Origin: Acidobacteriota bacterium
Lineage (GTDB): Bacteria > Acidobacteriota > Thermoanaerobaculia > Thermoanaerobaculales > Thermoanaerobaculaceae
Direction of reading: 5' to 3'
Assembly (NCBI GenBank): GCA_003158745.1
Contig: PMLC01000049.1
Coordinates: 738-34,601, forward strand
Length of the DNA stretch: 33,864 nucleotides
How positions within the stretch are numbered: the first letter of the stretch is position 1; each line of letters begins with the position of its first letter. The position numbers and the translations under genes were made by a program. The notes beneath the pieces were generated by a model. That model saw only the letters and a program-made list of their open reading frames with translations, was not told the origin of the DNA and did no database searches. Positions 8,376 to 24,287 of the stretch are shown piece after piece.

Positions 8376-10796
8376 CTACCTGCATCGCACGCCGACCTCG
8401 TGACAGCTGCCGGGGACAAGCGGCGGTGCGAGGAGGTTCCCGTCGACCGGCGCTCCATCCAAGCAAACCGAAGCGCTTGAGCCTTCCGGCAGGTCGGCAT
8501 CGCGCTCGATGGCGATGTGATAGATCGAGCCCCGGTACGGCCGGGTCATCTCCGCGCTGTTCCAGTCCGGGGGCAGACAGGGATCGAGGCGCAGCCCGTC
8601 CCACTCGGGGCGCACGCCGAGCACCCACTCCGCGACGATTCGGTGCAGCCACGCCGCCGAACCGGTGTACCAGGTCCAACCGGCGCGCCCGTGGTGGGGC
8701 GAGGCGGGTCCGTCCACATTGCCGGGCAAAACGTACGGCTCCGCCCAGTAGCGGTCGGGATCCTTGATCGCGGGGTTGATGGCCGCGAGGAGGCGGCCGG
8801 CGAGCTCGTGGTCCCGGACCTTGCAGGCTGCCGCGATGGCCCACGTCGCAGCGTGGGTGTAGACGCCGCCGTTCTCTCGCAGCCCTGGGGCGTAGCGAGT
8901 GATATAGCCGATCTCGGGGATCGCCTCGTCGAACGCTGGGGACAGCAGCAGCGCACCCGCATCGGTCACCAGGTGCTCGCGCAAGGCGGCCATGCACCGC
9001 GCGGCGCGTTCCGGGGGCGCGACGTCGGCCAGGATGGCCCACGTCTGAGAGTTGAGGAAGATACGGGCCCGTCGGTTGGACGCGCTGCCGAGAAGCGAAC
9101 CGTCGTCGAGTGTCGCGCGGAGGTACCACTCGCCATCCCACGCGTGCTCGTTGATCGCAGCGACCAATGCCTCTCGGCGCGCGGCGAGCTTTACCGCGAC
9201 CGGGCCCCGCCCTGTGCGTTCGCAGACGACCGTCCAGTCGGCCAGCAGCCCAGCCAGGAAATGGGCGAGCCAGACCGATTCGCCGCGCTCCTCGAGCCCC
9301 ACCGCGGACAGGCCGTCGTTCCAGTCGCCGGCGCCGATGTACGGAAGCCCGCGTGCGCTGGTCCGCACGAAGACCCTCTCGAACGCCCGCATGATGTGGT
9401 CGAAGAGCGACTTCGCATCCTCGTCGAGGAACGGGGCCTGGTCTTGGAGGATGTCGAGGCGGCCGGTCTCGCGGATGTAGCTTCCGGTCACGAAGGCGAG
9501 CCACAGGAGATCGTCGGTCATCTTCGTGACGTGACCCTGCTCGGAGAGAGGGTGCCACCAGTGGTACACCGAGCCGTCGGCGAACTGGTGGGCCGCATGG
9601 AGGTCGATCTGAGCGCGGCACTGCTGGGGGTCGATGGTAAGCCAGACCTGGGAGTCCTGGAGCTGGTCGCGGAAACCGTACGCGCCGCTCTGCTGGTAGT
9701 AGCCGCAGCGCCCCCAGAGACGGCTCGAGATCGCCTGGTACCGGAACCAGTCGTTGGTCAGAAAGTTCACGGTCGGATCCGGTGTCCGTACCCGGTGGCC
9801 GTTGAGCCTGTCGCGCCAGCCGGCCTGCACCGCCTGGATTGCGCTGTCGATGGCTGCAACCGTGGCTGTGCGTTCCAGTAGCGCCTCGGTGCCGGTGCGG
9901 GAGGAGGCGATCGCCAGAGCGTATCCGATGGTGCGGCGCTCACCCGGGCCAAACGCGAGCAACGAGCGGAGCGCCGCGATCGCATCGCCATGCCGCCCGA
10001 ACTCCGGCGTCCAGACTTCCTGGGTGAGCGCCTGAGGGGCGCGCAGATCACCGTACCGACCCAGGAAGGCAAGCTTGTCTCCGTGGGCCGCGACGACCGG
10101 CTCCGTGCAGCCCAGCGCAGAGACGTAGGGGAAATCGGTGTTCCAGTGGCCGAAGCGCTTCGAGGGCACCTCCCACATGTGGCTCGCGGCGAAAACCGCC
10201 CGCCGGGAGGCGTCGTAGTGGGTCTCCAGGAAGAGCCGCGTGAACTCCCGGCGCGGCGAGGGGGCGACGCCGCAGTTCCACTCCACGTACGCGCAGATCT
10301 CGAGCCTCCGGGGACGCTTCGTGAGGTTGGCGATCTCGACGCGCCAGAGTTCCACCGTCTCCTCGGCGTGGCACGCGAGCGTCCAACGCGCCGCGATCCC
10401 TTCGAACTCGGTCTCGAACGAGGTCGTCCCGATGCCGTGCCGGCACGCGAAGCGCGCGAAAGGTGCCCACACGGGCGCGGGCGAGAGCGACCACACGGTG
10501 CCCATGTCGACGTCCCGCAGGTAGAGGAACTTGCCGGAGGCGTCCTGGGTCAGGTCCTGCTGCCAGCGGGTGATTACGCCGAGCTGGGAGTTGTCGATCC
10601 AGGTGAAGCCGCTGCCGGTCTGGCTCACGACGAGACCCAGACGCGGGCTGGCGATTACGTTGACCCACGGTCGCGGGGTCTTCGGGTCGGTGATGACGTA
10701 CTCGGTTCCGTCTTCCGAGAAGTGACCGTAGCGGTTCGGGGGACCGGCCGGGTGGGGCGTCTCGGGGGAGTGCCCGGTCCATTTCGTGGCGTTCAT
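8376..10796 (-). CDS. GH94 family glycoside phosphorylase (806 aa)
   Basis: Inverting phosphorolysis of a beta-linked glucoside to alpha-glucose 1-phosphate plus a shortened acceptor, in the cytoplasm (no signal peptide). The N-terminal beta-sandwich start (YVITDPKTPRPWVNVIAS) is typical of GH94. The (alpha/alpha)6 core has GAYGFRDQLQD, HAAHQFADGSVYHWWHP, TDDLLWLAFV and GDWNDG near residue 492, whose Asp is the expected general acid. The core motifs resemble the NdvB C-terminal and cellobionate-phosphorylase-like branch more than classical cellobiose phosphorylase (which has ADWNDC). Chain length suits disaccharide phosphorylases rather than the roughly 1100-aa sophorooligosaccharide enzymes, so the substrate is open. 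The ATG at 10796 follows GGAGGA at about ten bases; an ATG at 10829 would add 11 residues. It is divergent from the GH1 gene, with a LacI-type operator between. Confidence 0.9.
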   Translation of the reverse strand: MNATKWTGHSPETPHPAGPPNRYGHFSEDGTEYVITDPKTPRPWVNVIASPRLGLVVSQTGSGFTWIDNSQLGVITRWQQDLTQDASGKFLYLRDVDMGTVWSLSPAPVWAPFARFACRHGIGTTSFETEFEGIAARWTLACHAEETVELWRVEIANLTKRPRRLEICAYVEWNCGVAPSPRREFTRLFLETHYDASRRAVFAASHMWEVPSKRFGHWNTDFPYVSALGCTEPVVAAHGDKLAFLGRYGDLRAPQALTQEVWTPEFGRHGDAIAALRSLLAFGPGERRTIGYALAIASSRTGTEALLERTATVAAIDSAIQAVQAGWRDRLNGHRVRTPDPTVNFLTNDWFRYQAISSRLWGRCGYYQQSGAYGFRDQLQDSQVWLTIDPQQCRAQIDLHAAHQFADGSVYHWWHPLSEQGHVTKMTDDLLWLAFVTGSYIRETGRLDILQDQAPFLDEDAKSLFDHIMRAFERVFVRTSARGLPYIGAGDWNDGLSAVGLEERGESVWLAHFLAGLLADWTVVCERTGRGPVAVKLAARREALVAAINEHAWDGEWYLRATLDDGSLLGSASNRRARIFLNSQTWAILADVAPPERAARCMAALREHLVTDAGALLLSPAFDEAIPEIGYITRYAPGLRENGGVYTHAATWAIAAACKVRDHELAGRLLAAINPAIKDPDRYWAEPYVLPGNVDGPASPHHGRAGWTWYTGSAAWLHRIVAEWVLGVRPEWDGLRLDPCLPPDWNSAEMTRPYRGSIYHIAIERDADLPEGSSASVCLDGAPVDGNLLAPPLVPGSCHEVGVRCR

Positions 10797-10850
10797 GCCG
10801 CGGTGTCCTCCACGCGTTGGCACGACCATCGAGCCTCGGCGTCGGGTCGG

Positions 10851-10864
10851 TGTAAACGGTTACA
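10851..10864. promoter_or_regulatory. LacI-family operator in the GH94/GH1 divergent region
   Basis: TGTAAACGGTTACA is a 14-bp near-palindrome with one mismatched pair around a central CG, the hallmark of LacI/GalR-family sites. It differs by one base from the perfect site at 25561-25574 in front of lacI. It abuts the -10 box of the GH94 promoter, so bound repressor would block transcription start. Confidence 0.8.
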
Positions 10865-10893
10865 TTACAGCGCATGTGGCCCGCGAAAGTCAA
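10864..10893 (-). promoter_or_regulatory. Sigma70-type promoter for the GH94 gene
   Basis: On the minus strand, TTGACT (10893-10888) is followed after 18 bases by TGTAAT (10869-10864), giving 5/6 matches to each consensus box. The predicted start falls within the operator at 10851-10864, about 55-60 bases before the GH94 ATG at 10796. Confidence 0.65.
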
Positions 10894-10929
10894 CTGCTGA
10901 AGCCTTTTGCGCTGGAGGAATCGGCCCGT

Positions 10930-10937
10930 GCTATGGT
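10930..10937 (+). promoter_or_regulatory. Possible extended -10 element for the GH1 gene
   Basis: TGCTATGG then T resembles an extended -10 (TGnTATnnT). The best -35 candidate, TTGCGC at 10907, sits 19 bases upstream and is weak. If this is the promoter, the transcript would start near 10944, which excludes the upstream ATG at 10933 and favours ATG 10987. Confidence 0.3.
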
Positions 10938-10986
10938 GACCGCGGACGCCTCGCCCGAACCACCTTTTTTTGGGGGTGCCTTCGAC

Positions 10987-12381
10987 ATGACTTCGTTCTC
11001 CGGCCCGGCCGATTCGCACCCCTTCCCGGATGGTTTCGTGTGGGGCGCGGCCACCTCGGCGTACCAGATCGAGGGCTCTCCGCTGGCCGACGGCGCCGGC
11101 CCTTCGACCTGGCACCGCTTCACCCACACGCCGGGACGCGTCCTCACCGGCGAAACCGGCGACGTCGCGTGCGATCACTACCGGAGATGGCGCACCGACA
11201 TCGCCTTGATGCGAGAGTTAGGACTCGGCGCTTATCGTCTCAGCATCTCATGGAGTCGTGTGCTTCCCGAGGGGACCGGGCGAATCAACGCCAAAGGGCT
11301 GGACTTCTATAAGCGTCTGGTGGACGGGCTGCGCGAGGCCGGCATCGCCCCGATGGTGACGCTTTTCCACTGGGACCTGCCGGCGGCGCTCGACGATCGC
11401 GGAGGGTGGCTCAACCGCGACATTGCCGGGTGGTTTGCGGAGTACGCCGAGGTGCTCTTTCGTGCCCTCGACGACCGCGTCGCGTGGTGGGCGACACTCA
11501 ACGAACCGTGGGTGGTCTCGGACGGAGGCTACCTCCACGGCACGCTCGCGCCTGGGCACGCGAGCCCGTTCGAGGCGCCGATCGCAGCCCACAACCTGCT
11601 CCGCGCCCACGCAGCCGCGGTCCAGGCGTACCGCACGGTCGGGAGACGCGAGATCGGCCTCGTGGTGAACCTCGAACCGAAGTTCCCGGCGTCACAGAGC
11701 AGCGACGACGTCACAGCGACGGCCCGCTCCGACGCCTACATGAACCGCCAGTTCCTCGACCCAGTGTTCCTGGCGTCGTACCCGCCGGAGCTCCCGGGGA
11801 TGTTCGGCGAGGCGTGGCCGGTGTTCCCGGCCTCGGACCTCGACGCAATCAGGCAAAGAGTCGACTTCGTGGGTGTCAACTACTACTCGCGCGGCGTCAT
11901 GCAGCTCGATCCGTCCGTGCCTCCGGAGTGCGCCGTGCGGGTGCCGCAGCCCGGCTCCGTCTACACCGAGATGAACTGGGAGGTGTATCCACGTGGGCTT
12001 TCGGACACGCTGCTCTGGATCAAGGAACGCTACGGCGACGTCCCGCTCTTCATCACGGAGAACGGCGCCGCAGTCGCGGACCAGGCGTTGCCGGGGGGCG
12101 GGTTCAGTGACCCGCTGCGAGTTGCGTACCTGCGCGACCACCTGCGGGCCGCGCGGAGTGCCATCGCGGCAGGAGTGGATCTCCGCGGCTATTTCGTGTG
12201 GTCGCTGCTCGACAACCTGGAGTGGAATCACGGGACCTCCAAGCGCTTCGGTATCGTGCACGTGAACTTCACGACGCAGCGCCGCACGCTCAAGGACAGC
12301 GCGCACTTTTACGCTGAGGTGATTCGAACGAACGGCGCCGTCCTCGCGGACGATGTCGCTCGGCCCGAAGGGGCGTGCTGA
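10987..12381 (+). CDS. GH1 family beta-glucosidase (464 aa)
   Basis: Retaining beta-glucosidase expected to release glucose from cellobiose-, sophorose- or similar-linked oligosaccharides in the cytoplasm (no signal peptide). The family start FPDGFVWGAATSAYQIEG lies close to the N-terminus. The acid/base Glu is in TLNEPWV (about residue 172), the nucleophile Glu in FITENG (about 357), and the aglycone-site stretch YFVWSLLDNLEWNHG precedes the C-terminus. Length is normal for GH1. ATG 10987 has GGGGGTG eight bases upstream; an in-frame ATG at 10933 would add 18 residues with no family resemblance. It is transcribed away from the GH94 gene and converges on the esterase. The LacI-type operator about 120 bases upstream probably affects it too. 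Confidence 0.95.
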   Translation: MTSFSGPADSHPFPDGFVWGAATSAYQIEGSPLADGAGPSTWHRFTHTPGRVLTGETGDVACDHYRRWRTDIALMRELGLGAYRLSISWSRVLPEGTGRINAKGLDFYKRLVDGLREAGIAPMVTLFHWDLPAALDDRGGWLNRDIAGWFAEYAEVLFRALDDRVAWWATLNEPWVVSDGGYLHGTLAPGHASPFEAPIAAHNLLRAHAAAVQAYRTVGRREIGLVVNLEPKFPASQSSDDVTATARSDAYMNRQFLDPVFLASYPPELPGMFGEAWPVFPASDLDAIRQRVDFVGVNYYSRGVMQLDPSVPPECAVRVPQPGSVYTEMNWEVYPRGLSDTLLWIKERYGDVPLFITENGAAVADQALPGGGFSDPLRVAYLRDHLRAARSAIAAGVDLRGYFVWSLLDNLEWNHGTSKRFGIVHVNFTTQRRTLKDSAHFYAEVIRTNGAVLADDVARPEGAC

Positions 12382-12440: not shown

Positions 12441-13241
12441 TCAGTGGGCGCCGCTCGAGGGTGGCGGTCCCTTGCGCTGGGCAAGGAGCCAGCCGGGCAG
12501 CTCCGTGTCGCCGTATGCACGCTCCCAGCAGCCGTGCCCGACGCCGGGGTAGAACGTCGCGCGCGGTTTCGACCCTGCCGCCTTCAACGCCTCGACCATG
12601 GCACGGGTCTCTTCGACGGGCACGACGTCGTCGGCCTCGCCGTGAAACGCCCACACGGGAAGGGCCTTGATTTTGCCCGCCAGCTCCGCGTGCGTGCCGT
12701 TGAAGACACCTGGTTGGTTCTGGCGCGCGGGACCGTACCCGCAGACCGACACGACCGCGGCCCACAGCTCCGGGTGGCGGGCGCCCAGCACCCACGCGCC
12801 GTGCCCGCCCTGGGAGAGCCCGGTGAGCACGAGGCGCGCCGGATCGACCGAGTACTCCTGCCTCACCTGCGCGAGGATCGTCATCAGCTCGGGCTCGTAC
12901 TGTTCCCATTCCGCGTCCTGGGAGGGCTTCTGCGGGATGATCACGATGAACGGCCACAAGTCGGAGTTCCACACAAGCTCATGCGGCAGGCCCTGAGCGA
13001 GCTGACGGCTGCCGTCGGTGCCGCTTTCGCCGCTGCCGTGGAGGAACAGGATGAGTGGCCACGCTCGTGAGGGATCGTACGCACGCGGCACGTAGACCGT
13101 GTACTTGATCTCGCGGCCATCGAGCTTCAGCGAGGAGAAGAGAAACCCTGTAGACACCTGCGGTCCTCCCGTTGCAGCCCAACCCGACAATCCGCCGGTC
13201 ACCACCAACGAGGCCAGAGCCGCCGTCGTCTTTCCTATCAT
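12441..13241 (-). CDS. Exported alpha/beta-hydrolase, predicted esterase/peptidase (266 aa)
   Basis: Serine hydrolase with an N-terminal signal peptide (MIGKTTAALASLVVTGGLSG), so probably periplasmic. Catalytic elements are visible: oxyanion region LILFLHGSGESG, nucleophile elbow GLSQGG (Ser ~142), acid in FHGEADDVVP and His in GVGHGCW. The pattern is that of the predicted-peptidase/PHB-depolymerase-like group (COG4099 type), many of which act as carbohydrate esterases. Its ATG overlaps the stop of the upstream glycosidase gene as ATGA, with AAGGAG just before, indicating translational coupling. As the last gene of the glucan operon it may remove acyl groups from decorated glycan, which is inference from context. 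Confidence 0.85.
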   Translation of the reverse strand: MIGKTTAALASLVVTGGLSGWAATGGPQVSTGFLFSSLKLDGREIKYTVYVPRAYDPSRAWPLILFLHGSGESGTDGSRQLAQGLPHELVWNSDLWPFIVIIPQKPSQDAEWEQYEPELMTILAQVRQEYSVDPARLVLTGLSQGGHGAWVLGARHPELWAAVVSVCGYGPARQNQPGVFNGTHAELAGKIKALPVWAFHGEADDVVPVEETRAMVEALKAAGSKPRATFYPGVGHGCWERAYGDTELPGWLLAQRKGPPPSSGAH

Positions 13242-16200
13242 CGTCTCTCCTTGCCGTCGCGGTCTTTGCCGCCGTCATGCGAACCGGCGCTTCCCGTAGG
13301 CTTGGCGTCCTCCGGCGCGATCAGGACGTCGGCGGGGAGTGACCGCACCACGACCTCTCCGGTCGGGGAAACCTCGACTGGCGCTTCGTTCACAGTCACC
13401 ACGAGCCGGCCGGGAGGCAATGGCGGCCGCAGCACGATGCCTCCCGGCGGCACACGCGGTCCCGATTCGACTCGAACGTGAACGGCGCAGGCTTCGTTTT
13501 GCATCGTGAACGAGAGGGCTCCGTACTGCGTGCGCAGGCCGCGGACCGCGATGCCGTCGCCCGCGAGCCACTCGAGCGGCACTCCGGCACCGAGCACGAG
13601 CGCTCCGTCGGCCGGACGCTCGTACGCGAGCATATCGAGGAACGAGCGGATGAAGTCCGATCCGACCCACGCGTGCGGCAGGTCGCCGAGGTACGCGGCC
13701 TTCGTCGGGTTCTCGTGGACCACCTCGGGCCACTGGTTCCACCCGATCGGCATTCTGTCGGCCATCAGCCAACGCGCGAGCGCGACCGCCCGCTCCCGGT
13801 GGGCGAGGCGCACGAGCGAGGAAACGCTGCGCCACTCGTACGGCGTGTACCCCTCCCATGCGGCCCGCCCCGAGAAGCGCGCCTCGGCCTCGCGCCAGTA
13901 CCGCTCCCAGGTGGCCTCGACCGCCGCGCGGGGGAGCTTTGCGTCGGCGCCCGCGGGCCAGAGCGCGACGGTGGAAGAGGTCGCGTCGAAGTCGCCCATC
14001 TCCGCGCACCCCGGGAGCCAAGCGATCCCCTTCTCGGCGCGCACCCGTGCGATCGAGGCCAGGACGTCGCGCTCGAACTCGGCGCGCGCCGCGCTCCAGC
14101 GCGAGGCGTCGGCGACGTGCCCGAGCGTTGCCGCCATCCAGGCGGCGTCCTCGAGCCCCTTGAGCGCCCAGAAGTCGTCCCAGTACGAGTGCATCGGCTT
14201 CGCGGAGTACCCCTCGTGCGAGATCGACTCGGGGAGCAGACCGAAGAACGCGAGCGTGTCCGGCGCGCGGTACGCGTCGGTGCGCCGTTTCTGCCGCAGC
14301 TCCTCGATGTACCCGGCCGCGGCGGCGAGGTGCGGCCACACCTCCCGCACGGTGGCGGCGTCCCCGGTGTAGCGCAGGTACTCCGCGGCGAGGAACAGCA
14401 ACTCGCCGTGCGAGTCGTTCTCCGGGACAGGGTCGGCGCCGCGGAGGTCGACGACGCAGGGGACCTGGCCGCTGGCGAACTGGTGCGGCGCGTACCAGCG
14501 CAGGTACTCGCGCACCTCCTCGGGGTGGCCGAGCCGGAGGAGAGCGGCCGCCATCATCGTGCCGTCGCGGATCCACGAACGCGCATAGTTGCGCGTCCCC
14601 GGCTGCAGCGCGGCCCGGTCGCGGCTGGCGAGGATGTACGCGAGGTTGGACCTCGCCGCGGCCGCGAACGCCTCCACCTCCGGCCCGCCGGCGATGCCGG
14701 CGCGCCGGACCGCCTGCGCCCACGCACCCGCCTCGGCGGCGCGACGCTCCTCGGGGAGCGGTGTCGCGGCGCTCGCGGCGAGGGAGGCGCCGTCCTGCCG
14801 CGCCACCCGCACCCACGCCTCGGCGGACGGCGCCGCCGCGAGGCCGATCGCGAGCGCGCCGGAGGCCCACCCGGACGGATCGCGCGCGTCGCCGCCCTCG
14901 GGCAGCTCCCCTCGCGCGAGCCACGACACCACGTCGCCGTCGTCGAACGGGGCGGCGCCCGCCGACGCGTCGGCGGCCAGAGCCTCGACGGCGAAACCGG
15001 CAGCCACGAGCGTACGGCCGCTCGCCCGCACGAGTGCGAGCTGCGCCGCGCCGCCGGCGAGGTTGAGGAACTGCGCAGGCGGGTTGACCTGCAGCGGGCG
15101 CACCGCGAGGAACAGGCGCGGCGCGCGGGAGCGCCCGGTCCGGTCCGTGAGCCGGTAGCGCAGCAACGTGGCGTCGCCGCCGGACAGGTCGCGCGACGCC
15201 GCGATTTCAAGGTCGAACGACGGGTGGCACCACGTTACTGACGGGAGCGGGAGGTCGCCGCCGGCGAGCGCCTGACCGCTCGCGACGTCCGCCCAGGTGA
15301 CGAGCTTGCCATCGAGCCAGACGAACGGCTCGACCGTGAACGTCCGCGGCGCGGGCTCGAATGCGCCGTCCGCGCCCAGCAGGGCGGAGGGCCGGCTCGG
15401 GGCGAGGTCCCCGACTAGCGTCCACGACGTCATCTCGCCCAGGAAAGCGCGCGGGTACAGCCCACGCCGCGAGACCTCCGCGACCGAGGCGATGAACGCG
15501 TTCGGAATCGCGCCGAACTCCGGCGGCTCGACCGTCAGCCTCGCGACGGCGACGCCGTCGGGCGCGGCGCCGGAGGCGAGGACCCGAACGAAGCGGCACG
15601 CCGCCTCGGGGAGCCGCACGAACGAGCGGCTGCCGTGGACCGCCCTCTTCGGCCACCCGGTCGCCCATGCCGCACCGTCGTCCGAGGTGAGCACCTCGAA
15701 CGCGGGGGCGCTCCGGTTCCACTCAATCGCGAGGCCGCCGAGCTCGCGGCGCTCGCCGAAGTCGAGCTGCAGCCAGGCGTCGCCCGCCGCGCCGGGGTCG
15801 CTGTGCCAGCCGCCGTTCTGACCCGAGAGCGCCTGCGCCGGCCCGCGGCCGGGAAGCGAGGACGACGCGCTTGCGACCGGGGTGCCGGCGTAGGGACGGT
15901 CGGGCGGGAGCGGCGTCAGCGCGAAGTCGGAGATCCACACCGAGCCGCGCCCTCCGGAGCCCGCGGTGACCGCGATCTCGATCGACGCCGCCCGCTTGAG
16001 CTCGCCGCCGCCGGCAGGCCCCCAGGCGAACGAGACCTGACGCTTCCGGACCCGCAGCGTGGTCCACTCGTGCGGGAACGAAAAGTCGCGCCGCGGCGAC
16101 CACCACACGTTGTCGCCGCTCGCGTCCACGAGCTTGAACTCGAGGTTCTCGGTCGGGGCCTCGCCGCGGATGCGGAAGGTGAACTCGTAGTTGTCGGGCA

Positions 16201-16468
16201 GCTCGAGGTCGACGGTCTTGCGCACGGCCGCCCAACCGCCGTGTCCCTGGAAGTCGAAGTCGAGACGCATCGCCGGACCGCCCGGCCCGGCCTCGCCCGC
16301 GACCGCGAGCGTCACCCCTTCCGATGGCGCGGCCTTCCACCCCGCGACGTTCGCAAAGTCGTCCAGCACCCTCGTCTGCGCCCCGCCACCCGCAGCAACG
16401 GCGAAGCTGAATAGGCAGAGTGCGGCTTTTCGGACCACGGACCACGGACCACGGACCGCGTCTCTCAT
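13238..16468 (-). CDS. Putative (alpha/alpha)6 glycoside hydrolase with N-terminal discoidin/carbohydrate-binding domains (1076 aa)
   Basis: Large exported protein. An unusual n-region (RDAVRGPWSVVRK) leads into a hydrophobic signal core (AALCLFSFAVAAGGGAQ). Residues ~30-185 look like a beta-sandwich carbohydrate-binding module (VLDDFANVAGWKA; YEFTFRIRGEA). Residues ~190-310 resemble an F5/8-type C (discoidin) domain (WLQLDFGERRELGGLAIEW). The C-terminal half looks like a six-hairpin glycosidase: NYARSWIRDGTMMAAALLRL near 629, NDSHGELLFLAAEYLRYTGD near 683, YWDDFWALKG near 763 and a final GDLPHAWVGSDFIRSF. I cannot place it in a numbered GH family and do not assign catalytic residues; the Asp of WIRDG and Glu of SHGEL are only candidates. 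Its ATG overlaps the permease stop (ATGA). A heptamer repeat encodes the first residues. Confidence 0.8.
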   Translation of the reverse strand: MRDAVRGPWSVVRKAALCLFSFAVAAGGGAQTRVLDDFANVAGWKAAPSEGVTLAVAGEAGPGGPAMRLDFDFQGHGGWAAVRKTVDLELPDNYEFTFRIRGEAPTENLEFKLVDASGDNVWWSPRRDFSFPHEWTTLRVRKRQVSFAWGPAGGGELKRAASIEIAVTAGSGGRGSVWISDFALTPLPPDRPYAGTPVASASSSLPGRGPAQALSGQNGGWHSDPGAAGDAWLQLDFGERRELGGLAIEWNRSAPAFEVLTSDDGAAWATGWPKRAVHGSRSFVRLPEAACRFVRVLASGAAPDGVAVARLTVEPPEFGAIPNAFIASVAEVSRRGLYPRAFLGEMTSWTLVGDLAPSRPSALLGADGAFEPAPRTFTVEPFVWLDGKLVTWADVASGQALAGGDLPLPSVTWCHPSFDLEIAASRDLSGGDATLLRYRLTDRTGRSRAPRLFLAVRPLQVNPPAQFLNLAGGAAQLALVRASGRTLVAAGFAVEALAADASAGAAPFDDGDVVSWLARGELPEGGDARDPSGWASGALAIGLAAAPSAEAWVRVARQDGASLAASAATPLPEERRAAEAGAWAQAVRRAGIAGGPEVEAFAAAARSNLAYILASRDRAALQPGTRNYARSWIRDGTMMAAALLRLGHPEEVREYLRWYAPHQFASGQVPCVVDLRGADPVPENDSHGELLFLAAEYLRYTGDAATVREVWPHLAAAAGYIEELRQKRRTDAYRAPDTLAFFGLLPESISHEGYSAKPMHSYWDDFWALKGLEDAAWMAATLGHVADASRWSAARAEFERDVLASIARVRAEKGIAWLPGCAEMGDFDATSSTVALWPAGADAKLPRAAVEATWERYWREAEARFSGRAAWEGYTPYEWRSVSSLVRLAHRERAVALARWLMADRMPIGWNQWPEVVHENPTKAAYLGDLPHAWVGSDFIRSFLDMLAYERPADGALVLGAGVPLEWLAGDGIAVRGLRTQYGALSFTMQNEACAVHVRVESGPRVPPGGIVLRPPLPPGRLVVTVNEAPVEVSPTGEVVVRSLPADVLIAPEDAKPTGSAGSHDGGKDRDGKERR
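16432..16459. repeat. Four-unit 7-bp tandem repeat (GTCCGTG/GGACCAC type) at a gene start
   Basis: GGACCAC occurs three times in tandem at 16432-16452, followed by the variant GGACCGC at 16453-16459. On the minus strand this is GTCCGTG-type and lies inside the first 13 codons of the discoidin glycosidase, encoding VRGPWSVVR. Confidence 0.9.
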
Positions 16469-17286
16469 TCTTTGAGTCCCCCCATCGTGATCCCCTCGAC
16501 GTACGTGCGCTGCAGCACGAGGAAGAGCAGCAGCACCGGCAGGACGGTGAGAACGGAGCCGGCCATCATCAGCTCGATATCCTCGGCGTGCTCGCCGATG
16601 AGGTTGGCGAGTGCCACCGGCAGGGTGTACCGGCGCTCGTCGGTGAGCACGATCAGGGGCCACATGAAGTCGTTCCAGGCGCCGATGAAGCTGAACACCC
16701 CGAAGGTAACCAGGATCGGCCTCAGCATCGGGAAGATGAGCTTCCGGTAGATTGCGAATTCGCCTGCGCCATCTACGCGCGCGGCGTCGATCAATTCGTC
16801 CGGGAGCGAGAGCGCGTACTGGCGCACCATGAAGATGCCGAAGACCGGCGCCAGGGCCGGGATGATCACGCCCCAGTATGTGTTCACCAGGCCGAAGGTC
16901 CGCAACAGCAGGAACATCGGCAGCATCGCGACCTGGGCCGGGATCACCATCGCGGTGAGGAGCACGCGGTATACCTGCGATCGCCCGGGGAAGCGGAGCT
17001 TCGCGAACGCATACCCGGCCAGCGAGACGATAAGAAGCGCCCCGACGGTGGACACGGTCGCCACGAAGGCGCTGTTGAGGAAGCAGCGCCCGAGATCGAG
17101 CCGCTCGAAGAGCGCACGGTAGTTGGCGAGCGTTGCCTGGCTCGGCAGGAACCTCGGCGGCCACTTGCTCGCCTCGCCTGCCTGCATGAGGGACGCGGAG
17201 AGCATCCACGCGAACGGCAGCAGCGTCGCGACAGCCCCGATCGCGAGGACCAGATAGAGCGCGGTGGCGACGGCGAGCTTCCTCAC
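16465..17286 (-). CDS. Sugar ABC transporter permease, MalG/UgpE type (273 aa)
   Basis: Inner-membrane subunit of a CUT1-type carbohydrate importer. Six hydrophobic spans are visible, beginning VATALYLVLAIGAVATLLPF. The cytoplasmic EAA loop, which docks the ATPase, reads ELIDAARVDGAGEFAIYRKL, and the C-terminus QRTYVEGITMGGLKE is the typical MalG-type ending. The GTG at 17286 overlaps the stop of the previous permease as GTGA, and its own stop overlaps the next gene's ATG, so translation is probably coupled through the operon. No ATP-binding subunit is encoded in the window; CUT1 systems often share one encoded elsewhere. Confidence 0.93.
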   Translation of the reverse strand: MRKLAVATALYLVLAIGAVATLLPFAWMLSASLMQAGEASKWPPRFLPSQATLANYRALFERLDLGRCFLNSAFVATVSTVGALLIVSLAGYAFAKLRFPGRSQVYRVLLTAMVIPAQVAMLPMFLLLRTFGLVNTYWGVIIPALAPVFGIFMVRQYALSLPDELIDAARVDGAGEFAIYRKLIFPMLRPILVTFGVFSFIGAWNDFMWPLIVLTDERRYTLPVALANLIGEHAEDIELMMAGSVLTVLPVLLLFLVLQRTYVEGITMGGLKE

Positions 17287-18185
17287 TCGCGCTCCCGCTG
17301 GAACCTGAGCTGCACCAGCGTGCCGGCGAGGATGATCAGGAAGAGCACGAACGCGACGGCGGCGCCGAACCCGATGTTCCACCAGCGGAATCCCTGTTTG
17401 TACATGTACATCACCAGCGACAGTGTGGCGTTGAGGGGGCCGCCGGTGCCGCCGGTCAGAACGTAGGGCTCGGTGAAGAGTTGGAAGTAGCCGATCATCG
17501 TGATGATGCCGACGAACACCAGCATCGGACGCAGCGCCGGCAGCGTGATGTGCCGGAACTGCTGCCATGGCCCGGCGCCGTCCACTCGGGCGGCCTCGTA
17601 AAGCGTCCCCGGGATGCTCTGCAGCCCGGCGACGAAGATGATCATGTTGTAGCCGAAGTTCTTCCACACCGACATCAGGATGATCGCCGGCATTGCCCAG
17701 CGCGGGTCGCCGAGCCAGTTGACCCCTCCGATCCCCACCGCACCCAGCAACTGGTTCAGAAGGCCGAAACGGGGGTGGTACAGGTAGCGCCACACCGTGG
17801 CGACCGCCACCATGGTTGTCACGACGGGCGCGAAGTAGACGGTCCGGAAGAGCCCCTTGAAGCGCACCACGCGGACGTTGAGGAGCATGGCGGCGCCGAG
17901 CGACACCGCGACCGAGAGCGGGCCTCCGACGAGGACGAAGTAGAACGTGTTGAGGAGCGCTTTCCAGAACACCGGGTCGCGGAGGAGGGCCGCGAAGTTG
18001 GCAAGACCTACGAAGCGAGCCGTTGCGAGGTCGCCGATCGCGTAAATGTCGAAGTCAGTGGCGGCGAGCAGGAAGCCCGCCGCTACGGGGACCACGAAGA
18101 ACACGACGATGAGCCCGAGGGCGGGGGCGACGAACGCCAGGCCGGCACGGCCCTCGCGGCGAGCGCGCCCGGTGCGGGCGCTCAC
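17283..18185 (-). CDS. Sugar ABC transporter permease, MalF/UgpA type (300 aa)
   Basis: Partner permease of the CUT1 importer in the inner membrane. It opens with a basic stretch (VSARTGRARREGRAG) and a first transmembrane span (LAFVAPALGLIVVFFVVPVA). The EAA loop reads TLYEAARVDGAGPWQQFRHI and is followed by TLPALRPML, and the segment LTGGTGGPLNATLSLVMYMY is typical of MalF-type permeases. The GTG at 18185 overlaps the stop of the binding-protein gene as GTGA. Length is normal for short MalF-type subunits without the large periplasmic P2 loop. Confidence 0.93.
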   Translation of the reverse strand: MSARTGRARREGRAGLAFVAPALGLIVVFFVVPVAAGFLLAATDFDIYAIGDLATARFVGLANFAALLRDPVFWKALLNTFYFVLVGGPLSVAVSLGAAMLLNVRVVRFKGLFRTVYFAPVVTTMVAVATVWRYLYHPRFGLLNQLLGAVGIGGVNWLGDPRWAMPAIILMSVWKNFGYNMIIFVAGLQSIPGTLYEAARVDGAGPWQQFRHITLPALRPMLVFVGIITMIGYFQLFTEPYVLTGGTGGPLNATLSLVMYMYKQGFRWWNIGFGAAVAFVLFLIILAGTLVQLRFQRERE

Positions 18186-19522
18186 GGGTTCGCTCCCCTC
18201 GCGCGCCTGTCGAGGAGGAAGCGCCGTTTCTCGAGCATGCGGTCGACCTCGGTCTGGAGCCGGTCGAGCGACTGGTCCTCCGTCTGCTGGCCGAGGATGA
18301 CGCGCTCGGTCGCCTCTGCGATCGCCCAGGCGATGTGCTCCCACTCCGGCACGCGAGGCATCGGCGTCACGTGGTGGAGTTGCTCCCGAAACGCCAGCAG
18401 GTGTGATTCGCCGGTCAGCACCGGGTCGTTCCACGCCGCCAACCGAGCCGGAAGGTCGCCGGTGAGCCGGTAGAACGCGAGCTGCTGCTTCGGCTCGGCC
18501 AGAAACTCGATCAGGCGGAAGGCCGAATCCTTCTTCTTCGAAGGGCTGAAGATCACGATGCTCGATCCGCCCGCGAGCGAGACGCCCGGGTAGTCGGCCT
18601 CCTCAACCGCCGCGAGCGGCGCGGTCGCCCAGTCGCCCTGCCGCTCGGGGGGGAGACGCAGGTGGAACTTCTCCAGGTTCCACGGTCCCGTGATCACGGA
18701 CGCGAAGTACCCGTCGGCAAACTGCTGGTAGAGGTTGGCGACCTGCGCGTTGCCAAGCGGGGGAGCGAGGCGCTCCGCGAACAGCGACACGTAGAACTGG
18801 AACGCCTGGCGGAAGCGCGGCTCCTTGAAGTCGGCGCGCCGCCCGCCATCGCGCAACAGGTCGGCGCCGGCCTGGAGGGCGAGGATGACCGGCTGTGCCC
18901 ACTCGTCGGTCGGCATCAGCATTGCGTAGTGGTCCCCGCCCGGCAGCGCCTTGATCCGGCGCATGTCGTCGCGCCACTCCTCCCAGCTTCGTGGGGGCCG
19001 GGCGACGCCTGCGCGGGCGAACAGGTCGCTGCGGTAGAAGAGCACGCGCGTGTCAACGTACCAGGGCACGCCGTACGGCTCACCGCCGATCTCATTCGTG
19101 GCCCAGATCCCCGGGAAGAACTCGGCCGGGGCGAGCGCGGACACGCGGACGCGCGCGCCCAGCGGCTCGAGCGCACCCAGCGCGACCAGCTCCGGGATCC
19201 AGGTGTTGCCGAGCTGAGCGAGGTCCGGGGTGGAGCCGCCGACGAAGGCGGTGAGCAGCTTCTCGTGCGCGGCGGTCCACGGGATCTGCTGGACCTGGAC
19301 GTGCACGCCCGGGTTCGCGCGCTCGAACTCCGGGAGCAGCAACTGCACCACCTCGCCCTCACGGCCGAGCGCCCAGAATCGCAGCGTCGAGCCGCTCCCC
19401 GAGCCGCTGCAGGCCGCCAGGAGCATGGTAGCCAACGCCAGCAACGCGCCGCCGACCCCTGCGTGGCCGGCCATCGACAGGCCATTGGTTTCGAGGCGGG
19501 TGGAGTGTGTTCTGAGGGTCAT
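18182..19522 (-). CDS. Sugar ABC transporter substrate-binding lipoprotein (446 aa)
   Basis: Extracytoplasmic sugar-binding protein of the CUT1 importer. The signal peptide ends in a lipobox LLAAC followed by a Ser/Gly linker, so the mature protein is anchored by its lipidated Cys. The fold-family features are clear: LRFWALGREGEVVQLLLPEF, then VQVQQIPWTAAHEKLLTAF, LAQLGNTWIPELVALGALEP, YGVPWYVDTRVLFYRSDLF and SIVIFSPSKKKDSAFRLIEF. The start is ATG 19522, two bases after the glucanase stop; an internal Met at MAGHAGVGG, 16 residues on, would give a more usual signal length. The bound sugar cannot be deduced from sequence. Confidence 0.92.
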   Translation of the reverse strand: MTLRTHSTRLETNGLSMAGHAGVGGALLALATMLLAACSGSGSGSTLRFWALGREGEVVQLLLPEFERANPGVHVQVQQIPWTAAHEKLLTAFVGGSTPDLAQLGNTWIPELVALGALEPLGARVRVSALAPAEFFPGIWATNEIGGEPYGVPWYVDTRVLFYRSDLFARAGVARPPRSWEEWRDDMRRIKALPGGDHYAMLMPTDEWAQPVILALQAGADLLRDGGRRADFKEPRFRQAFQFYVSLFAERLAPPLGNAQVANLYQQFADGYFASVITGPWNLEKFHLRLPPERQGDWATAPLAAVEEADYPGVSLAGGSSIVIFSPSKKKDSAFRLIEFLAEPKQQLAFYRLTGDLPARLAAWNDPVLTGESHLLAFREQLHHVTPMPRVPEWEHIAWAIAEATERVILGQQTEDQSLDRLQTEVDRMLEKRRFLLDRRARGANP

Positions 19523-19524
19523 GC

Positions 19525-21069
19525 TCAGGGCGCGCTGTCGAGCCAGCCGCCCGCAAACCCGGCGCGCCGGAGCCCGGCCACGATGTAGGGGTTCTTCCTC
19601 ATGAGCGTCCAGACGAATCCGTTGCGGTAGTTCTCGATCATGGCCACGATCGGTCCCTGGTCGAGGCCCAGGTAGTCGGTGTCGAACCAGCCCTTGCCAG
19701 GGACAACGCGTCCCGCGGTCGCTCTGCCTGTGAACGTGAAGCTCGGGTTGAACGCATCGAGGAAGCCGTACGTCGAGTAGAGGTCATCGCCCCAGCGGTC
19801 GCGCATCGCCTTGACGGCGGTCACCGCGATCTCCGGCGCGAACGCGATCGATGCGGCCGCCCCGGTCGGCGCGATCGTGCCGTCGTCGAGCGTGAACGTC
19901 GCGCCGGCCCCGCGTCCGGCGTACGTCCAGAACCTCGTGGGCGTGCCGTTGTACGTGAGCGTCACATCAGCCGGCCCGTCGCAGGCCGTGACGCCCCAGG
20001 TGTCGGCGCCGTACCCGGCCCATCCTTCGGGGTTGGCGATGGAGTACGCGCGTTGGGCGTACGCGGCGCGGCGGGTGTTCTCGAAGTAGTCGATCCCCTT
20101 GCCCCGCATGTACGCGTCCTGGATCCCGCGGCAGTCGAGCCACACCTGCGTGTACTGGTGCCCAAACAGCGGGGAGAACGCGACGTACTCCTGGCCGTAC
20201 CAGCTCGCCCAGACGTACGTCTTCGTGAACTCGCTCCACGCCGAGGCGTCCGGGCTCGGCGGGTGGGTCGGGGAGCCGAGCGCCAGGATGTAGAGGATCA
20301 TCGCCTCGTCGTACCCGCGCCAGTCGAGAGGGTGGAGCCCGCGGTCGGGGTACCACCCCATGCATACCAGGGGCGGGCGCGGCTGGAGGAAGTTCCAGTC
20401 GGCGGCGCGGTAGAGCGCGTCGGCCAGGGTCCGGATCTCCACCTCGCCGGGATCGGCGCCGTCGAAGTAGCTCTGGCACGCGAGCGCGCCCGCCAATAGG
20501 AGCGCGGTGTCGATGCTGGAGAGCTCGACGTCGCTCCCGTAGCGCGTCCCCGTGCTCGAGTTCAGGAAGTGGTAGTAGAACCCCTTGTACCCGGCCCGCC
20601 CGCTCGCCTCGGGCCCCTGCGGCGCGCTCGCGAAGAAGCGCAGCGTGGCGAGCACGCGGTCGCGAGCGTCGGCGCGCGACACGAGGCCGCGCTCGACACC
20701 GATCGGATACGCGGTGAGGCCGAACCCGACGGCGGCGATCGACGCGAAGTCCGGAAGTGCGCCGTCCGGCCAACGGTCCGGCACGAGCCCGTTCGCGGGG
20801 TTCGCGAGGTCCCAGAAGTACCGGAACGTGCGCGCCTGGAGCTCATCGAAAAACGGGTCGAAGCGCTCGGTGAGGAGCTTCCGGCGCACCTTGTGCGACT
20901 GCGAGTCGGCTGCTTCGGCGGCTCCCCACGATCGGGACGAACTCGCGTCGCCGTGCGGCGAGGCAGCACAGGAGACAAGCGCGACGGCTGCGAGAATGGC
21001 GCTCAGCGCGAAGCGAATCAGATGCGGCGCGCGATCTTGCGGCAGGATGCGAACGTACGGTCCCAACAT
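19525..21069 (-). CDS. GH144-type (glycoamylase domain) glucanase, exported (514 aa)
   Basis: The conserved pattern follows the family whose characterised members are beta-1,2-glucanases releasing sophorose or sophorooligosaccharides: LQARTFRYFWDLANPANGLV, SIAAVGFGLTAYPIGVERG, GYKGFYYHFLN, SSIDTALLLAGALACQSYF, DEAMILYILALGSPTHP, FGHQYTQVWLDCRGIQDAYM and LGLDQGPIVAMIENYRNGF. The domain spans roughly residues 70-505, essentially the whole mature protein. The N-terminal hydrophobic segment ends ALVSCAAS, compatible with a lipoprotein signal, so it likely acts in the periplasm or at the outer membrane. The ATG at 21069 follows GAAGG. It begins the coupled run to the binding protein, permeases and glycosidase, downstream of a strong hairpin after the TonB receptor. 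Older annotations of this domain as glucoamylase are misleading. Confidence 0.88.
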   Translation of the reverse strand: MLGPYVRILPQDRAPHLIRFALSAILAAVALVSCAASPHGDASSSRSWGAAEAADSQSHKVRRKLLTERFDPFFDELQARTFRYFWDLANPANGLVPDRWPDGALPDFASIAAVGFGLTAYPIGVERGLVSRADARDRVLATLRFFASAPQGPEASGRAGYKGFYYHFLNSSTGTRYGSDVELSSIDTALLLAGALACQSYFDGADPGEVEIRTLADALYRAADWNFLQPRPPLVCMGWYPDRGLHPLDWRGYDEAMILYILALGSPTHPPSPDASAWSEFTKTYVWASWYGQEYVAFSPLFGHQYTQVWLDCRGIQDAYMRGKGIDYFENTRRAAYAQRAYSIANPEGWAGYGADTWGVTACDGPADVTLTYNGTPTRFWTYAGRGAGATFTLDDGTIAPTGAAASIAFAPEIAVTAVKAMRDRWGDDLYSTYGFLDAFNPSFTFTGRATAGRVVPGKGWFDTDYLGLDQGPIVAMIENYRNGFVWTLMRKNPYIVAGLRRAGFAGGWLDSAP

Positions 21070-21198: not shown

Positions 21199-24168
21199 CT
21201 AGAAGTTGACCTTGGCGCCCACCTGGAAGCGCCGCGTGTTGTACTGGCAGCCCGGATTGCCGAAGTTGGCGTTGAGGCTTCCGGGTCCTCCCGTGTTGCT
21301 GTCGAAGCAGCTGTTGTTGGCGAAGTTGAAGACGTTAAACGCCTCACCGATGAGGCCGAGGTGGAAGTCACCACCCACCTTGGCGTCCCACTCGGCGCGT
21401 AGGTCCACGCTGCGGTAAGCGAACTGCTTGATGCCGAGGAAGCTCTGCTTCTGAGGATCCATCGCCGCGGTAAAGCACTTGTCATAGCCGGCCCTGCAGT
21501 CGTTGTAGTAGAAGGGCAGGCCCGAGGTGAGGGTGATGATGCTGGAGAGCTTGAACCCCGCCGGCAGGCCGACTGTGCCGCTCATGACGAGCTTCTGCTT
21601 CTCGATGAAGATGGATTGGAACGTCGCGAAGTTGGGCGGCAGGGAGTCGAACGCGAAAGCGACGCCATCGTCGGTCGAAGCCTGCTGTTTGGCATCCGAG
21701 TAGGTGTAGGCCAGGTTGAAACCCCAGTTCGAGTCGTTGGTGTAAGGCTTGTCGAGGGTGAGGATGTACCCGTCGTACCAGCTCTTGCGTGTGTCGTAGC
21801 TGCGCATGACGAAGCCGTACCCCGGGATCGAAATCGAGTCGCCCCAGCGGTCGTTGAACGGTGTCCCGGGCGGCAGGGTGCCGAAGCTCCACACCATCCC
21901 GTTGTAACCGCGCGAGTTCGCATAGGTGAGCCCGGCGAGCCAGTTGCCCAGTTGCTGCCGCACGCCGAGATTCCACTGGGTGGAGCGTGGCGGGTGCGTG
22001 TTGTTGTCGAGGAGGAAGACCTGCGGGCCCGGCGCAACGCCGCTCGCAATCAAGCCCTTGAGCCCCGCGGCGGACTGATACGAGGGGTTCCAGAGGACCG
22101 CCGGGGCGCTGCAGTTTGGGATGTAGGTTCCGACCTTGGTCGGGTCGTTCGTGAAGCAGAAGTCGTAAATCTGCCAGGTGTGTCGGAACTCTTCGTCCAT
22201 GATGTCGTTGAGCGGGATGCGGTCGTAGTAGAGGCCCCAGCCGCCGATAACGACCGTCTTCCCGTTGCCGTTGGGATCCCAGCTGAAGCCCAGGCGGGGT
22301 TGGATCATGCCTTTGTAGGACTTCCGGTTGCTGCCGGTCGAGATGTAGTCGGAGGGGTTGAAGATCTGCGGGATGCACCACGTGGTCTGGCCGCCGATCG
22401 GCTGTCCGTACGTGCGGCAGGAGGACTCGAGGCCCGAAACCACGTTGGCGGGCGTGACCCAGTTGTTGTTCAGCATGTTGGTCTCGTAGTCCCAGCGAAC
22501 GCCCGCGTTGATCGTGATGTTGTTGGCGAGTTTCCAATCGTCCTGTGCGTAGAGCCCGTACTGGTTGTTGTCGTAGGCGAGCGCTGGATTTCCGTAGCCG
22601 ATGACGGCATGGTACGGGTACTGCCAGTTCTGGTCTCCGCTGAAATCGAACTCCGGATTCCCGCTCTGGTCCTTGACCATGTCGTACTTCATGAAATTGA
22701 CCGTGAAGCCGGCCTTCATCGTGTGACTGCCGTGCCACTCGGCGAAGTAGCTCAGATCGTCGCGGAGCCCGATCTTCTTCTGCGTCAGGTCCTGGGTAGT
22801 GGTCGAACCGCCGACTTGGAGCAACCCGTAGTAGTTCAGCTCTGGCGCAGCTGAGGCAGCCGCACCCTGGATCCACTCCATCTTCTGCCATGTGAGGCTG
22901 CCCTCGTTAAGGGTGTCGTTGCCGGCCATCCACTGATGCCGCAGGACGGCAGCGTCGGTTTTGACGCCGAAGTCTTGAGCCCCATCCTTGGTGGTCTGTC
23001 CGCCAAATCCGCGGACATCGCTCTCATCGCGGCTATTGTAGGAAAAATCCATCGTCTGGGACGTGGACGGCTGCCATGAGAGCTTTCCGAAGTACAGCTT
23101 CGAAGTGAACGGAGATGACAGGGCGCCGGTCGGATACGGCTCGAGGATGGCAAGGACGTTTGCTGGCGCTTGGGCCCAGTTTCCGCCGTGGTAGACGGAG
23201 CTGACAACGTCGCGGTTGTTCTGCTCGGCCGAGACGAAGAAGTTCAGCGTGTCCTTCATAATCGGGCCGCCCAGCGAGAGGGCATACTGATTTCGCGTAT
23301 ACGGCGGCTTGGTGTCGCCGCGCGCCTTGGCGAAGTCGTCCTGCTCGACCATGTTCTTGTTCTGGTAGAGGTACGTGAAGTCACCGTGGAAGTCGTTGCC
23401 GCCCGACTTGGTGACGGCCGTGATCACCGCCGCCGTCGCCTGTTCGTACTCGGCCTTGTAGTTCTGCGTCATCACCTGGTACTCCTGCACCGCGTTCTGC
23501 GGGAACGGGTTGCCACGGACGGAGTCCTGCATGAAGGCGCCACCCTTGATGAGATCGTTCTTGTATGAAAGGCCGTCGATGAAGACGTTGACCTGCTCGG
23601 GCTTGGCGCCTGCGCTGCCGAAGTACTGCCCCTCGGCGTCCGTGTCCTGCGTGAACGTGATTCCGGGGGCGAGGCCGGCAAACGCGAGGAAGTTGCGGTT
23701 GTTGAGCGGCAGACTGTCCATCTGCTGCGGCGTGATGTTGGTGGCCACGACCGACGAGCGGGTGTCGACGAGCACCTTGGTCGTCTCGCCGACCACCGTC
23801 GTCTCGCCGACGAAGACCTTTTCCGGGGAAAGCTCGAAGTTGACCTTGTTGGCCTGCCCGAGCAGCACCGTTACGGTTTCGGTCTTCGCCTTGTAGGCTT
23901 CGGAGTAGACCGTGATCTCGTATGTGCCGGGGGGGAGGCCGCCCAACAGGAACGTCCCGTCGTCGCCGGCGGTCACTTTGTAGACGAACGCGGTCTGGGT
24001 ATTCTTCGCGGCAATTGTGGCTCCAGGGAGCGGTCCCCTCTTGTCGCTGACCGTGCCGCCGATGCTTGCCGTCGTGCCCTGCGCGCCGGCCTGGTTGCAG
24101 ACCAAGAGCGTGAGCAGCAGGAGCGCCGGCAACACCACGAGCCAGTGCTTCTTCACGTTGCGTTGCAT
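21199..24168 (-). CDS. TonB-dependent outer-membrane receptor, Oar-like (989 aa)
   Basis: Predicted TonB-driven importer of large ligands through the outer membrane. Order: signal peptide (KKHWLVVLPALLLLTLLVCN to QAGAQ, ~1-29); a carboxypeptidase-regulatory-like domain (~33-115, TASIGGTVSDKRGPLPGATI and GLPPGTYEITVYSEAYKA); a plug domain (~130-260, with NNRNFLAFAGLAPGI and VNVFIDGLSYKNDL); then a long beta-barrel rich in Asn, Tyr and Trp, ending in Phe (FQVGAKVNF), the usual barrel C-terminus. This Oar-like layout is common in Acidobacteriota and Myxococcota; no SusD-like partner is present. The ATG at 24168 follows AAGGAGGAAGGGGAA. An upstream in-frame Met is not needed. It lies 119 bp after lacI with no clear promoter between, so co-transcription with lacI is likely. 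Its ligand is presumed to be the glucan of this locus. Confidence 0.92.
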   Translation of the reverse strand: MQRNVKKHWLVVLPALLLLTLLVCNQAGAQGTTASIGGTVSDKRGPLPGATIAAKNTQTAFVYKVTAGDDGTFLLGGLPPGTYEITVYSEAYKAKTETVTVLLGQANKVNFELSPEKVFVGETTVVGETTKVLVDTRSSVVATNITPQQMDSLPLNNRNFLAFAGLAPGITFTQDTDAEGQYFGSAGAKPEQVNVFIDGLSYKNDLIKGGAFMQDSVRGNPFPQNAVQEYQVMTQNYKAEYEQATAAVITAVTKSGGNDFHGDFTYLYQNKNMVEQDDFAKARGDTKPPYTRNQYALSLGGPIMKDTLNFFVSAEQNNRDVVSSVYHGGNWAQAPANVLAILEPYPTGALSSPFTSKLYFGKLSWQPSTSQTMDFSYNSRDESDVRGFGGQTTKDGAQDFGVKTDAAVLRHQWMAGNDTLNEGSLTWQKMEWIQGAAASAAPELNYYGLLQVGGSTTTQDLTQKKIGLRDDLSYFAEWHGSHTMKAGFTVNFMKYDMVKDQSGNPEFDFSGDQNWQYPYHAVIGYGNPALAYDNNQYGLYAQDDWKLANNITINAGVRWDYETNMLNNNWVTPANVVSGLESSCRTYGQPIGGQTTWCIPQIFNPSDYISTGSNRKSYKGMIQPRLGFSWDPNGNGKTVVIGGWGLYYDRIPLNDIMDEEFRHTWQIYDFCFTNDPTKVGTYIPNCSAPAVLWNPSYQSAAGLKGLIASGVAPGPQVFLLDNNTHPPRSTQWNLGVRQQLGNWLAGLTYANSRGYNGMVWSFGTLPPGTPFNDRWGDSISIPGYGFVMRSYDTRKSWYDGYILTLDKPYTNDSNWGFNLAYTYSDAKQQASTDDGVAFAFDSLPPNFATFQSIFIEKQKLVMSGTVGLPAGFKLSSIITLTSGLPFYYNDCRAGYDKCFTAAMDPQKQSFLGIKQFAYRSVDLRAEWDAKVGGDFHLGLIGEAFNVFNFANNSCFDSNTGGPGSLNANFGNPGCQYNTRRFQVGAKVNF

Positions 24169-24287
24169 TTCCCCTTCCTCCTTTCGAGAGATGGTTCGAG
24201 TTTGGGATTCCTCAAAGGTCTCTTCTCGCGTGGCGCCTCTCGCCGCCGCGAGGCCAAGCGTGCGGGTCCGGCTCCGGGCAATGGTGC

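Follow-up and report, generated by a model that had tools for sequence, protein, structure and literature searches.

β-1,2-Glucans are factors in virulence, symbiosis and osmoregulation, and a number of the degrading families have received their names only recently. One of the degrading enzymes is the GH144 protein XcSGL, which hydrolyses β-1,2-glucan (PMC12102758). In the available portions of two reports, the β-1,2-glucan clusters of Listeria, Ignavibacterium and Streptomyces combine an importer with a GH94, GH1 or GH3 enzyme and a glucanase, and no GH15-like enzyme is described there (PMC8861115, PMC12369401); the accessible part of the second gives Lin1841 as a sophoro-oligosaccharide-binding subunit (PMC12369401). 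Some of these glucans are rings: α-1,6-cyclised β-1,2-glucans (CβGα) are recorded, in what is available of the source, for Ralstonia solanacearum (DP13), Xanthomonas campestris (DP16) and Cereibacter sphaeroides (DP18) (PMC11842490). The CβGα of X. campestris is made by an anomer-inverting GH186 transglycosylase, and the accessible sections of the two reports in question name no enzyme that removes the α-1,6 link (PMC11228985, PMC11842490).

The analysis described here concerns a 33,864-nucleotide stretch of DNA from an Acidobacteriota bacterium, referred to in its entirety as the window, and within it the gene of a discoidin-bearing protein, DSH. The family to which this protein belongs is the most consistent uncharacterised GH144 neighbour in one large operon class, which extends from the Acidobacteriota to Xanthomonas and Stenotrophomonas.

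The DSH gene and its operon

The DSH gene is an intact open reading frame at 13238..16468 on the minus strand, starting with an ATG at 16468 and encoding 1076 residues (P0001), while the plus strand of the same interval contains stop codons. A 4-nt ATGA overlap couples its ATG to the stop of the permease upstream, and a second 4-nt ATGA overlap couples its TGA to the start of the esterase downstream. A preliminary description of this DNA had proposed a reading frame here, translationally coupled between an ABC permease and an esterase; the frame is real and the overlaps at both ends bear out the coupling, but the strand had been left out.

Upstream of DSH, and all on the minus strand, are ABC permease 2 (16465..17793) and ABC permease 1 (17283..18434), both matching BPD_transp_1 and both given as open frames whose true starts lie further downstream, then the sugar-binding protein of the importer (18182..19522, SBP_bac_1), a GH144 endo-β-1,2-glucanase (19525..21069), an outer-membrane receptor (21199..24291, OMP_b-brl_4 with a carboxypeptidase-regulatory domain) and a LacI-family regulator (24288..25538, LacI and Peripla_BP_3). 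Downstream are an exported-looking α/β-hydrolase esterase (12441..13241, minus strand; Abhydrolase_2, Esterase), a divergent GH1 β-glucosidase (10786..12381, plus strand; Pfam and TIGR03356 above cut-off, an open frame whose true start is probably further downstream) and a GH94 phosphorylase (8376..10829, minus strand; Pfam). The GH144 enzyme is the orthologue of XcSGL (XCC2207), with a phmmer value of 2.8e-173 to 8xul; the best PDB matches of the sugar-binding protein are 3uor and Lin1841 (5ysb); and the GH94 enzyme scores 448 bits against the phosphorylase domain of cyclic β-1,2-glucan synthase (CGS) versus 368 against cellobiose phosphorylase. An orthologue of a proven β-1,2-glucanase and an oligosaccharide importer therefore share one operon, and since the GH144 is XcSGL-like, the GH94 CGS-like and the binding protein related to Lin1841, the assignment of the locus to a β-1,2-glucan pathway is well supported, in agreement with the glucan operon first suggested for it.

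The receptor gave no plug domain match in the domain scan, and XCC2208, its likely Xanthomonas counterpart, has been described without a canonical plug (PMC1790865). Two further genes of the window were read by eye. One (4731-8312, minus strand) looks like a Kgd-type protein in which a succinyltransferase-like domain is fused to the N-terminus of a 2-oxoglutarate dehydrogenase E1, and the other, beside the glucan operon (25779-27221, plus strand), resembles a mechanosensitive channel with a C-terminal cyclic-nucleotide-binding-like domain.

Domain plan and kinship with GH15

The DSH chain opens with a signal-like N-terminal helix, followed by a CBM11-like and an F5/8 type C module, a β-supersandwich and an (α/α)6 barrel, and closes with a small β domain; the sampled relatives have similar N-termini. 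This plan is drawn from sequence matches and from AlphaFold2 models, one of the full-length protein with a 64-sequence input (pLDDT 91.6, pTM 0.91) and one of the catalytic half, residues 330-1060 (pLDDT 93.8, pTM 0.95). The CBM11-like β-sandwich (residues ~32-190; 15899..16375, minus strand) is seen as strands in the model and through CBM_11 (PF03425), which matches 10 of 45 homologues within an E limit of 0.01 (lowest value 5e-6) and leaves the window protein itself unmatched. The CBM32-like F5/8 type C domain (residues ~195-325; 15494..15886, minus strand) has a Pfam match at 199-298 that passes the cut-off (38.9 bits versus 28.2) and recurs in 45 of 45 homologues. Together, these two domains would keep DSH on the glucan. 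The β-supersandwich (residues ~330-570; 14759..15481, minus strand) is defined by model strands and by an hhalign match to the same region of GH15, and the catalytic barrel (residues ~595-951; 13616..14686, minus strand) by the model, Foldseek and hhalign to GH15. Both of the N-terminal β-sandwich modules proposed earlier are thus present, although the supersandwich had been overlooked as a third β domain, and the six-hairpin glycosidase that had been postulated corresponds to an (α/α)6 barrel predicted at high confidence behind an exported-looking N-terminus.

Pfam, NCBIfam and PDB sequences were searched with DSH, and Pfam and NCBIfam were scanned again with 64 relatives. F5/8 type C is the only Pfam family over cut-off in DSH, the NCBIfam scan returned no model at threshold, and searches of PDB sequences with the catalytic half, using profiles of 8 or 64 sequences, gave nothing significant. 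Below threshold, the matches lean towards GH15: the GH15 family PF00723 reaches 10.4 bits in DSH against a cut-off of 22, with 4 of 64 relatives at E 0.001, and the oligosac_amyl model, an oligosaccharide amylase of GH15 type, matches 63 of the 64 (best 7e-14). The GH78 model Bac_rhamnosid6H likewise falls short in DSH (17.5 bits versus 24.5) and is found in 35 of 64 relatives at E 0.001 (best 6e-8), while GDE_C is matched weakly by 18 of 64. Neither DSH nor any of the 64 relatives matched the GH94 families PF17167 and PF06165 at E 0.001, and none of them gave a Pfam match to GH144 (PF10091).

Profiles for GH15, GH65, GH125, GH94, GH78, GDE_C, GH63, GH116 and GH144 were compared with that of the DSH family by hhalign. 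GH15 is the best match (P 4e-16 over 542 columns), followed by GH116 (5e-9), GH78 (8e-9), GH94 (2e-7) and GDE_C (4e-7), a ranking that is provisional against the shallow profiles because profile depths differ; the weak scores of GH65 and GH125 mean little, as those profiles were built from 1 and 5 sequences. Against GH144 the probability is 0.5%, which indicates no relation. As a yardstick, GH15 itself gives 1e-10 against GDE_C and 4e-8 against GH94. Comparisons between GH15 subgroups give values of 7e-15 to 3e-25, those of the subgroups with the DSH family 1.3e-8, 2e-6 and 1.3e-10, and since DSH lies farther from these subgroups than they lie from one another, the profiles give good support to its position as a sister family of GH15 and not a member. 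Placement in GH144/SGL, GH78, GH94, GH63, GH65, GH116, GH125 or GDE_C was set aside, the profile match being absent or below that of GH15. In Foldseek the top fold match is a GH15 dextran dextrinase (1e-15, TMq 0.59), with the exo-β-D-arabinanase ExoMA2, a GH94 cellobiose phosphorylase and a GH15 glucodextranase close behind; as these include both kinds, fold alone cannot tell α-acting from β-acting families.

The catalytic half had been described at the outset as impossible to place in a known GH family, to be checked against family HMMs and structure databases. It is right that Pfam, NCBIfam and the PDB sequences offer no established catalytic family at threshold, but profile comparison does place the protein, with GH15 as its nearest neighbour. 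The DSH family is unnamed in Pfam, NCBIfam and the open literature, where no open-access paper on the protein was found, and the examined records of its relatives, where annotated at all, read 'discoidin domain-containing protein'; a CAZy number may already exist.

The motifs first picked out by eye are all found in DSH, as SWIRDG (631-636), ENDSHGEL (683-690) and GDLPHAWVGSDF (928-939), and are mostly invariant across the 64 homologues. In the hhalign comparison SWIRDG falls on CWLRDA of GH15, WPEVV on the GH15 base motif LSEQY and GDLPHAWVGSDF on GNFPQLYSHVGLI. The pooled GH15 profile leaves the acid loop unaligned and the two-sequence subgroup s2 could not be aligned globally, while alignment with subgroup s0 sets SISHEGY on EGIWEVRG and so places E752 on the GH15 acid. 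The residues W632, R634, D635, D674, E683, D685, H751, E752, D764, D826, D828, E915, D929 and H932 are invariant in 64 of 64 sequences. By alignment and invariance DSH therefore has both the WxRD motif and the glutamate acid and glutamate base pair of GH15. The first of these, W632-I-R634-D635 (14564..14575, minus strand; W, R and D invariant), is the putative subsite -1 motif. E752 in SISHEGY (14213..14215, minus strand), on the glutamate of GIWE, is the candidate general acid and lies in the model in the loop preceding helix α6, and E915 in WPEVV (13724..13726, minus strand), on the glutamate of LSEQ, is the candidate general base, in the loop joining the last two barrel helices. D764, in the invariant HSYWD, was weighed as an alternative acid. 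The choice fell on E752, since SHE falls on GIWE in s0 with matching spacing to helix α6.

Relatives and their neighbourhoods

One genome scan gave at least 592 confirmed relatives; a scan of viral contigs found none. Neighbourhoods were compared for the best 80 of these 592 or more, 62 of which have at least 5.5 kb of upstream DNA. GH144, the binding protein and the permeases are kept in 55 of the 62, the LacI regulator and the receptor are also present in 47, and GH144 is missing in 7, counts that are not independent events because the best-scoring 80 are rich in Xanthomonadaceae. Among the loci with the conserved set are those of Xanthomonas, Stenotrophomonas, Lysobacter, Pseudoxanthomonas, Luteimonas, Duganella, Gemmatimonadota, Acidobacteriota, Eisenbacteria and Rokuibacteriota. 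The DSH family is a standard partner of GH144 in several phyla and not a one-off. The esterase does not belong to this conserved system: it appears in 1 of the 80 wider loci and is confined to close relatives of the DSH operon. In a sample of 199 genomes from the window's own phylum, the Acidobacteriota, the family occurs in 6; the four strong cases have GH144 on the same contig within ~7 kb, and no GH144 was seen in the two divergent ones.

Several Competibacteraceae and one Methylocaldum have relatives without GH144 and with a large GH94 nearby. In three loci of this kind (L022:13199-17044, L042:13173-16652 and L052:7010-10531) the large GH94 adjoins the relative or is near it, with no GH144 or transporter, and the large GH94 scanned among these loci contains a pair of supersandwich domains, as does the C-terminal half of cyclic glucan synthase. 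Two divergent relatives from AT-rich genomes (L178:3742-6513, minus strand, and L179:8529-11318, plus strand) have an N-terminal GH2-type sugar-binding domain in place of F5/8 type C and no GH144 nearby, which makes the family part of a broader superfamily that has other substrates as well. In the plasmid record of Xanthomonas sacchari R1 (L010:11791-15243) the copy is interrupted, its parts lying in different frames with no listed gene, through a frameshift or a sequencing error.

Candidate activity and comparison with known systems

GH15 enzymes act on α-glucosidic bonds, and for this reason a β-1,2-glucan carrying an α-bond is proposed as the substrate. Kinship with GH15, the export-like N-terminus and the operon together indicate that DSH is probably an inverting glycosidase of the periplasm, with material derived from β-1,2-glucan as its substrate. 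DSH would be exported to the periplasm and work there alongside the GH144 endo-β-1,2-glucanase and the β-1,2-glucooligosaccharide ABC importer, with E752 giving a proton to the leaving oxygen, E915 activating water, and W632, R634 and D635 holding glucose in subsite -1. Its target would be an α-linked glucosyl junction beyond the reach of GH144, GH94 and GH1, and the most plausible candidate is the single α-1,6 link of CβGα; GH144 would probably open the ring first, after which DSH would cut the α-1,6 link. That DSH cuts an α-linked glucosyl junction in β-1,2-glucan material, taking every form of the α-bond reading together, has in our judgement a somewhat less than even chance. The specific proposal of a new GH family that hydrolyses the α-1,6 closure of cyclic β-1,2-glucans, linearising or trimming CβGα as the degradative counterpart of the OpgD-type CβGα synthase of Xanthomonas, is tentative and slightly less likely still.

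Several observations weigh against these readings. Kinship is the one source from which α-specificity is taken, and by structure (Foldseek) GH94 and GH116, which act on β-bonds, are near-equal. A ring has no free end, so that a GH15-like exo pocket would need a prior cut by GH144, or else a cleft; GH144 is absent in the 7 relatives noted above from the best 80 of at least 592; and searches of the open-access literature gave nothing linking the DSH family to CβGα. The strongest rival is an exo-acting, inverting β-1,2-glucan hydrolase that removes terminal glucose or sophorose from GH144 products in the periplasm before import, because the fold is also used by the β-acting GH94 and GH116 and because many Xanthomonadaceae loci have no relative of the window GH94 or GH1 in the flank (GH3 being outside this comparison). 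We consider it unlikely on balance, as GH15 is nearest by profile and far ahead of GH94, the window locus already has GH94 and GH1 for β-1,2 oligosaccharides, and ABC import of oligosaccharides makes periplasmic trimming to glucose less needed.

The same β-specificity would be required of a debranching enzyme that takes β-1,6-linked glucose off linear osmoregulated periplasmic glucans of the E. coli or Pseudomonas type, yet the nearest family is α-acting, and we hold this to be improbable even though such branches would also block GH144 products and branched glucans of this type are, in the accessible part of the source, β-1,2-glucans with β-1,6 glucose branches (PMC11842490). An invariant candidate base, E915, fits hydrolysis, and an uptake operon has no obvious need for remodelling; a transglycosylase that remodels β-1,2-glucan oligosaccharides before import is for these reasons very improbable. 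It would draw on the top structural match, dextran dextrinase being a GH15 transglucosylase, and on the inverting transglycosylation that GH186 carries out in the β-1,2-glucan pathway, according to the available portion of the report (PMC11228985). Least credible of all is a glucan-binding protein whose barrel has decayed and no longer catalyses, which would suit the two carbohydrate-binding-like domains and is hard to reconcile with both candidate glutamates, along with some twelve further polar residues, being invariant in 64 of 64 sequences. If the preferred reading, cleavage of the α-1,6 closure, is true, it would account for the bacterial consumption of cyclic glucans from plant pathogens, and DSH would serve as a tool enzyme for work on CβGα.

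Set against the systems already described, DSH shares its fold and pathway with the GH94 phosphorylases, including the C-terminal domain of CGS, and differs from them in having a candidate general base, E915; to our knowledge, phosphorylases have no general base. With GH144 XcSGL and the SGL clan it shares the operon, the glucan and an (α/α)6 barrel (PMC12102758), without a profile relation. The closest likeness is to the GH15 glucoamylases, glucodextranases, dextran dextrinases and oligosaccharide amylases, which have the same supersandwich and (α/α)6 barrel, the WxRD motif and acid and base glutamates at aligned places; unlike them, DSH carries CBM11-like and CBM32-like modules and sits in β-1,2-glucan operons.
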